From Picosynechococcus sp. PCC 7003 (lineage in GTDB: Bacteria > Cyanobacteriota > Cyanobacteriia > Cyanobacteriales > MRBY01), in assembly GCF_001693255.1 (NCBI RefSeq), contig NZ_CP016474.1:762661-826660 (forward strand): 64,000 bases of DNA, written 5' to 3'. How positions within the stretch are numbered: the stretch's first letter is position 1; each line of letters begins with the position of its first letter. The notes beneath the pieces were generated by a model. It was given only the letters and a program-made list of their open reading frames with translations, was not told the DNA's origin and searched no databases. Both the position numbers and the translations under genes were made by a program. Shown piece by piece: positions 49,176-50,184 of this stretch.

Positions 49176-49712
49176 GTGCTTAGGCAAACCCCTCGCTTTC
49201 TCTGGTTGTTGACGATACTGGTGGGACTAGGAGGCTGCTCCTTTGGTAACACCCCCTTAACCCCCGTTTCCCTCAATAGCCGCTTCCATGATGAACAGCC
49301 TGCATTGAGTGGGGATGGCCGCTGGTTGGCCCTAATTTCTAATCGCCATGGCACCAGTGAACTGCTTTTTTATGATTTAAACCAGAAGCAGTTTGTGGAG
49401 TTGCCTAATCTCAATCAAAAAAATGCGATCTATGAAAGCCCAAGCCTGAGCCGTACTGGGCGCTACCTCGTTTATCTTTCGAGTCCCCTGGGGAAGCCAG
49501 ACATTATTCTCTATGACCGAGCGACCAAGCAGTCTGATATTTTGACCCAGGGCTATCGTCATTGGGTGCGCAATCCCCAAATCAGTCCCGATGGCCGCTA
49601 TGTGGTGTTTGAATCAGCCCGGCGGGGTCAGTGGGATATCGAAGTGTTAGACCGTGGCCCGAATATTGAATTTGATTTGCCCCAGGAAGTGATTGTGAAT
49701 CCGTCGGGTTAA
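49176..49712 (+). CDS. TolB-like beta-propeller lipoprotein
   Basis: A 178-residue protein with an N-terminal signal and lipobox LGGC, so it is probably lipid-anchored. It contains three WD40-like/TolB repeats with the pattern PALSGDGRWLALISNR, PSLSRTGRYLVYLSS and PQISPDGRYVVFES. That is half of a six-bladed propeller, so it may pair or be a short form. GTG 49176 is the best start, since no ATG precedes the signal. A peptidoglycan- or Tol-related role is only suggested by the fold. Confidence 0.82.
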   Translation: MLRQTPRFLWLLTILVGLGGCSFGNTPLTPVSLNSRFHDEQPALSGDGRWLALISNRHGTSELLFYDLNQKQFVELPNLNQKNAIYESPSLSRTGRYLVYLSSPLGKPDIILYDRATKQSDILTQGYRHWVRNPQISPDGRYVVFESARRGQWDIEVLDRGPNIEFDLPQEVIVNPSG

Positions 49713-49777
49713 AGCTGCAGACGCAGAAAAATTAGCCTTATTTGAAGCAGTAATAGAGAGCGTTATTGCTGTGGGCA

Positions 49778-49789
49778 ATTGTTAACAAT
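49778..49789. promoter_or_regulatory. Perfect palindrome ATTGTTAACAAT
   Basis: A 12-base perfect palindrome 26 bases before the -35 box of the promoter at 49816. It is a candidate operator for the downstream transcript. Confidence 0.4.
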
Positions 49790-49791
49790 AT

Positions 49792-49812
49792 GAAAAAAAG
49801 ACGCCTTTTTTC
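49792..49812 (+). terminator. Possible A/T-rich terminator after the TolB-like gene
   Basis: GAAAAAA ... TTTTTTC forms a 7-bp stem around AGACGCC, with a T run inside the 3' arm. It is weak as a terminator. Confidence 0.35.
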
Positions 49813-49815
49813 ACC

Positions 49816-49843
49816 TTGACAGATGAGGAGATCGGAGTATCAT
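49816..49843 (+). promoter_or_regulatory. Near-consensus sigma-70 promoter
   Basis: TTGACA at 49816-49821, a 16-base spacer and TATCAT at 49838-49843. Transcription would start near 49850. This is the best housekeeping promoter I noticed in the window and faces the 71-residue membrane protein at 49969. Confidence 0.6.
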
Positions 49844-49867
49844 GTCATATATCTTAACCTTTAGCGA

Positions 49868-49923
49868 CTGTGCGCTCCCTAACCGCCTCACCATGACAGC
49901 TAGGGAAGTGAGAATCCGCACCA
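49868..49923 (+). ncRNA. Possible structured leader or small RNA, pseudoknot-capable
   Basis: Three helices can form. GTGCG (49870-49874) with CGCAC (49917-49921) encloses TCCCTA (49876-49881) with TAGGGA (49901-49906) and CTCAC (49887-49891) with GTGAG (49908-49912). The two inner helices interleave in the order 1-2-1'-2', which is pseudoknot topology. It starts about 20 bases after the predicted transcription start. It matches no riboswitch consensus that I can recall. A 35-codon frame also crosses it, so both readings stay open. Confidence 0.35.
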
Positions 49924-49968
49924 ACGCCATTCGGGCGATCGCCTTTTGAAGCAGAATTCGTATTGAAT

Positions 49969-50184
49969 ATGATTAACCCATCGATTTTGAGCCTCGGGGT
50001 TGCTGCCTGTGCAACCTGCTTGAGTGTCACCACAAAAGAAGAAATTGTGAAAGTCGCGACGGGATGTGTTGCCATTCTCGCCGGGTTTCTCGCCTTATGT
50101 TATGCGCCCTGGGTCATTAAGGTACTTGTTATTGCAATGCCGATTATCATCGAACGTCTCAAGGCCCGTTCTTCCAAGCTTTAA
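49969..50184 (+). CDS. 71-residue membrane protein of unknown function
   Basis: A small protein starting MINPSILSLGVAACATCLS. It has a first hydrophobic segment, a short polar loop (TTKEEIVKVATG) and a second long hydrophobic stretch (VAILAGFLALCYAPWVIKVLVIAMPIII, in part), then a basic tail (ERLKARSSKL). Two or three helices are likely. ATG 49969 is chosen; a TTG lies two codons upstream. It follows the structured leader and near-consensus promoter. No family recognised. Confidence 0.7.
   Translation: MINPSILSLGVAACATCLSVTTKEEIVKVATGCVAILAGFLALCYAPWVIKVLVIAMPIIIERLKARSSKL

Follow-up and report, generated by a model that had tools for sequence, protein, structure and literature searches.

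The 5′ leader (49850-49968, plus strand) of a gene encoding a small membrane protein of 71 residues (49969-50184, plus strand) appears, with a probability of about 0.68, to be a descendant of the type-1 glutamine riboswitch (glnA RNA, RF01739) whose binding core was lost in the branch formed by the genome under study (G000) and its two closest relatives, G001 and G002, of which G002 is the nearest. Coordinates are those of the window, i.e., the whole 64-kb stretch of DNA that was analysed. Six genomes, G000 to G005, which we placed in one genus (Picosynechococcus-type cyanobacterium), were compared; three leaders come from the G000-G002 branch, and G003, G004 and G005, which carry the riboswitch, are referred to below as the sisters. 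The earlier note had proposed a riboswitch-like leader in front of the membrane protein, which turned out to be a good guess at ancestry, given that many orthologs have a real riboswitch at this place. Its further remark that no matching class was known is true of the window copy, which matches no model even at E ≤ 5, and not of the locus, where the class is RF01739.

No Pfam or NCBIfam match over cut-off was obtained for the 71-residue protein. Its unnamed family has 51 matches, spread over 45 of the 100 relative genomes. A low-confidence AlphaFold model predicts two helices (mean pLDDT 70.9, pTM 0.35) and is too weak to support a search by fold. The 26-row protein alignment (A2) has a single invariant column, P47, and near-invariant columns at L9, A12, E24, E25, A35, K51 and P58.

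The consensus promoter noticed earlier is of the sigma-70 type (49816-49843, plus strand) and was borne out: TTGACA (49816-49821) and TATCAT (49838-49843), separated by 16 nt, match the consensus in 11 of 12 letters and rank at the top of the five promoter-like sites found between 48000 and 51000, where shuffled sequences lead one to expect 2.8. TTGACA and the 16-nt spacer are kept in all six genomes of the genus, with -10 boxes TATCAT, TATTAT (twice), TATGAT (twice) and TACAAT, and the distance from the -10 box to the gene is 124-130 nt in each of them. Transcription from this promoter would be predicted to start near 49850. The sequence 5′ of the promoter (49713-49777) is far less conserved in G002 than the leader, with 41 of 62 aligned letters kept, plus gaps.

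The riboswitch recurs in front of this gene family. The 51 protein matches were paired, on the same strand, with all 109 RF01739 matches of the 100 genomes, and in 19 cases a riboswitch precedes the protein match by 29-63 nt, including those of the same-genus genomes G003, G004 and G005. Eighteen of the 19 score over the RF01739 cut-off (35 bits), the exception being G033 with 30.6 bits. The other 32 family matches, among them those of G000, G001 and G002, have no upstream riboswitch match; absence is therefore common, which counts against the reading of descent. Most riboswitch matches (90 of 109) are located elsewhere, not before this protein family. When the better-scoring family matches (loci L011-L040) were analyzed by cmscan at the gathering score, RF01739 was found in 16 of the 30 loci (eight in L011-L030 and eight in L031-L040), and it is also present at L042 (same contig as G003) and L043. 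A wider survey, which was left out of this association count, detected the small membrane protein in 61 of 291 genomes of the class and RF01739 in at least 172 of them at E ≤ 0.001 (at least 167 over the cut-off).

Inspection of individual loci placed RF01739 directly 5′ of genes for membrane proteins of ~70 residues at L014-L017, L019, L023, L024, L026, L032-L037, L039, L040 and L043. At L020 and L021 (minus strand), the last 110 nt 5′ of the gene contain an intact 3′ half of the aptamer (GACGGAAGTAGG ... CCGAAGGAACGC), the 5′ half being missing or altered, and L025, the G033 locus, is like them. These half-aptamers are possibly the result of a second, independent decay. The leader in G015 (L018, ~1375-1460), which has no Rfam match, gives the visual impression of a degenerate aptamer relative (GGTTCGTCC ... 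AAGGAAAGCACC).

Thirty of the riboswitch loci located elsewhere were translated (the best match per genome, hence a biased sample), and many of the frames downstream of them resemble, as read from the translations, DUF4278 proteins or what we take to be short IF7-type proteins. The DUF4278 gene is present in all six genomes of the genus, in a single copy in each of G000-G002. The type-1 glutamine riboswitch itself is already well known: nitrogen-metabolism genes are listed for glnA RNA in PMC2864571, and, according to section 2.6 of PMC6316151, glutamine aptamers in the cyanobacterial genomes available are found mostly with DUF4278 genes (GifB-type). In the portions of the literature covered, which include portions of PMC7760959 and PMC3766115, no mention was found of these small membrane proteins as glutamine-riboswitch targets; one may appear in the primary paper (10.1093/nar/gky709) or its supplement. 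Since the family is a recurrent neighbour of glutamine riboswitches, it looks like a likely target of theirs, and a glutamine-controlled function of the small membrane protein at these RF01739 loci is possible.

In the window, this place in front of the gene is occupied by a leader from which the canonical core is missing. The search against Rfam that had been suggested as a check returned no family, either for the whole 64-kb window at the gathering score or for positions 49700-50000 at E ≤ 5, RF01739 included, and the leader stays below the RF01739 covariance-model threshold. At E ≤ 0.001 with the stricter filters of Infernal, whole-genome searches gave 0 RF01739 matches in each of G000, G001 and G002 and 3, 3 and 2 matches in G003, G004 and G005, respectively. 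The conserved core, CGUUC ... GACGGAAGUAGG ... CCGAAGGAACGC, is not found in the window, where the aligned letters differ: the core strings GACGGAAGTAGG and CCGAAGGAACGC are absent from the leader, the P1 and P3 strands are altered, and only short core pieces such as GGAAGT are left on one alignment. In contrast, the gene, the upstream flank, the promoter and the leader length are shared with the three same-genus carriers, and the P2 loop region is still recognisable in G000 and G002. At E ≤ 0.001, the leader had a single match in the genome, its own, and the further matches listed at E ≤ 1 fall in the part of the query (positions 73-122) that surrounds the HIP1 copy described below.

The type-2 glutamine riboswitch (Downstream-peptide RNA, RF01704) likewise stands before small protein genes in cyanobacteria. 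The window gave no match to its covariance model at 33 bits, nor did positions 49700-50000 at E ≤ 5; a search of 30 relatives gave no match, but neither did its controls, so that it is uninformative. In section 2.6 of PMC6316151, RF01704 is apparently confined to marine picocyanobacteria.

Similarity of the leader to the sister riboswitches is concentrated in the P2 hairpin region (49876-49906, plus strand), which is probably homologous to that of the riboswitch at least in the loop part, 49879-49900. Aligned without gaps to G003, the loop part agrees in 18 of 22 letters, a score that is reached by 3 of 1000 shuffles for G000 and by none of 1000 for G002. The similarity to G005 is moderate (15 of 1000 shuffles for G000 and 6 of 1000 for G002), and that to G004 is not above chance (867 and 417 of 1000 shuffles as good, respectively). 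A covariance model of the G003-G005 leaders, R1, was run over the 64-kb window with filters off and gave three matches at E ≤ 10, of which the best is 49876-49906 (14.4 bits, E 0.29; the next two score 9.9 bits), and it finds the same place in G002. Since a match with an E of 0.29 is weak alone, its weight comes from the expected position. In the 5′ part of the leader, no resemblance to the sisters was seen (729-1000 of 1000 shuffles scored as well), and the resemblance of the 3′ part is marginal (equalled by 2-390 of 1000). In the G001 leader, nothing significant was found against the sisters (116-760 of 1000 shuffles as good), and R1 does not recognise it either.

Outside P2, the sister P1 strand CGTTC aligns to TGTGC, which is part of GTGCG (49870-49874), and GTGCG can pair with CGCAC (49917-49921) in a possible outer helix (49870-49921, plus strand) that is unchanged in G002. 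Across the alignments tried, CGCAC did not align securely to the sister P1 strand GAACG. Homology of this outer helix to P1 of the riboswitch is possible.

The setting of the gene suggests the direction of change. The Ycf66 and PD40 genes of the upstream flank are common to G000, G001, G003, G004 and G005. The downstream gene (alpha/beta hydrolase-like) is present in G000 and G001 and could not be located in the G003-G005 stretches examined, so synteny there is one-sided. A tree built from 26 proteins of the family groups G000-G002 in a clade (0.96) within a genus clade (0.959) that also holds the riboswitch carriers; on this topology loss is simpler than gain, and loss in the G000-G002 branch is the simplest history. 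Thus read, an ancestral RF01739 would have stood before the small membrane-protein gene, as in other cyanobacteria, and its glutamine-binding core would have been lost at this locus in G000, G001 and G002, the promoter of the gene and, very nearly, the length of its 5′ UTR being retained. Glutamine would then no longer control the gene via the leader RNA, and the present leader would mostly be a vestigial 5′ UTR with no ligand.

An unlikely alternative is that the leader was remodelled and is active, P2 and the outer helix GTGCG/CGCAC having been kept or rebuilt by compensatory changes and now responding to another signal (a metabolite, a protein or an sRNA). Covariation in relatives, proposed earlier as a check, was seen on some alignments and not on others. 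On two MAFFT alignments, the P2 strands pair at six of seven positions in G000 and G002, which would mean that the structure was preserved for some time and counts against calling it vestigial. On MAFFT alignment A3, with five leaders, six of the seven P2 pairs have changed on both sides, and 94.3% of the 35 cells pair versus 42.9-60.0% when the partner strand is slid; six P2 pairs were reached in 1.5% of random-substitution trials and in 2.8% of within-strand shuffles. However, pairwise global alignments of G000 with G003, G004 and G005 at gap costs of -5/-1 and -5/-2 put a gap at the P2 3′ strand and keep GGAAGT, and the P2 strand is gapped in G003 at -10/-1 as well (at -8/-2 in three of three cases and at -10/-1 in two of three there was no real alignment, end gaps being free). 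If the P2 3′ strand is gapped, the covariation is accidental. As proof of a kept structure, P2 covariation is thus weakened by the competing alignments and by the marginal similarity of the 3′ part.

Conservation bears on the same question. Both helices are unchanged in G002, and 116 of 125 leader positions are identical between G000 and G002, as against 958 of 1325 fourfold sites of the nine surrounding genes. By a binomial test against these sites, special constraint on the leader first looked strong. However, among the intergenic stretches of the window that reach 60 nt (32 in all), the median identity to G002 is 0.93 (the leader's own stretch, 0.84), and 49% of 3854 intergenic windows of 65 nt are at least as conserved as the leader; a cruder background agreed. 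Since the intergenic background is equally conserved, leader conservation was not used as evidence. The folding of the leader is ordinary, no better than that of most shuffles, with energy z values of -0.52 (49866-49924; its G002 counterpart, -1.23), -0.80 (49870-49922) and +0.57 (49850-49968). Ordinary conservation, ordinary folding and a G001 that does not share the leader argue against a remodelled RNA, and we judge decay of the riboswitch more likely than rewiring, which is possible. Somewhat less probable again is the fuller version, in which a riboswitch changed its job, having lost its core, kept P2 by compensation and rebuilt the closing helix GTGCG/CGCAC for a new signal, and in which the two-helix membrane-protein family is glutamine-controlled in many cyanobacteria.

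It is very improbable that the leader is a structured RNA or sRNA of a new kind that has no relation to the glutamine riboswitch, in which three helices form a pseudoknot and GGCGATCGCC-TTTT resembles a terminator. The strands of three interlocking helices are indeed present in G000: GTGCG/CGCAC, TCCCTA (49876-49881)/TAGGGA (49901-49906) and CTCAC (49887-49891)/GTGAG (49908-49912). As many 5-bp stems as in 49866-49924 occur in 33 of 1000 shuffles and in 35 of 660 real stretches of 59 nt, so that their number is mildly unusual at most. In G002, the first two helices are intact, but the third reads CCCAC/GTAAA, with three of its five pairs broken by three changes, and G000 and G002 do not differ otherwise within 49866-49930. 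Because the third helix breaks in G002, the pseudoknot is unsupported, and we rejected it. The P2 region, moreover, resembles the sister riboswitches.

The terminator-like part of such an RNA is explained otherwise. GGCGATCGCC is present at 49934-49943 and is followed by TTTT, as had been noted, and the site (49934-49947) is absent from the list produced by the terminator scan. The window contains 80 copies of GGCGATCGCC and 118 of the HIP1 octamer GCGATCGC, of which ~1 would be expected in 64 kb at equal base use; the GGCGATCGCC site is therefore a copy of HIP1, a known cyanobacterial repeat (PMC4390886), an exact copy of GCGATCGC lying within 49934-49943. The repeat is found genome-wide and is uninformative on the leader. 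The 12-bp palindrome that had been noted (ATTGTTAACAAT, 49778-49789) is present too; the window holds 24 perfect palindromes of this length, against 15.6 expected at equal base use, and HIP1 is contained in 13 of the 24 listed.

Least probable of all is translation of a small frame of 35 codons (49842-49949) upstream of the membrane protein, which had been named as a finding that would speak against a structured leader: the frame is uninterrupted, with GGAG in front of it, and in G002 it is open and seven codons longer (42), its stop overlapping the ATG of the gene, but its own ATG overlaps the -10 box, so that the predicted transcript would lack it, the seven G000-G002 changes in frame and stop fall at first, second and third codon positions 0, 3 and 4 times (too few to judge codon selection), G001 has no such ATG, and the corresponding ATG in G003, G004 and G005 starts frames of 22, 14 and 22 codons, respectively, which run through the riboswitch, a different sequence. 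We rejected it as a gene for the -10 overlap and for the lack of conservation beyond G002.

Thus, the leader seems to be what is left of a known switch, eroded or rebuilt, rather than a new class, and a likely riboswitch loss takes the place of a candidate new RNA class. Close relatives with and without the aptamer, in which gene, promoter and place are equal, provide a natural experiment on the decay or rewiring of a metabolite switch. The small membrane-protein family, in turn, becomes a candidate effector of nitrogen status.
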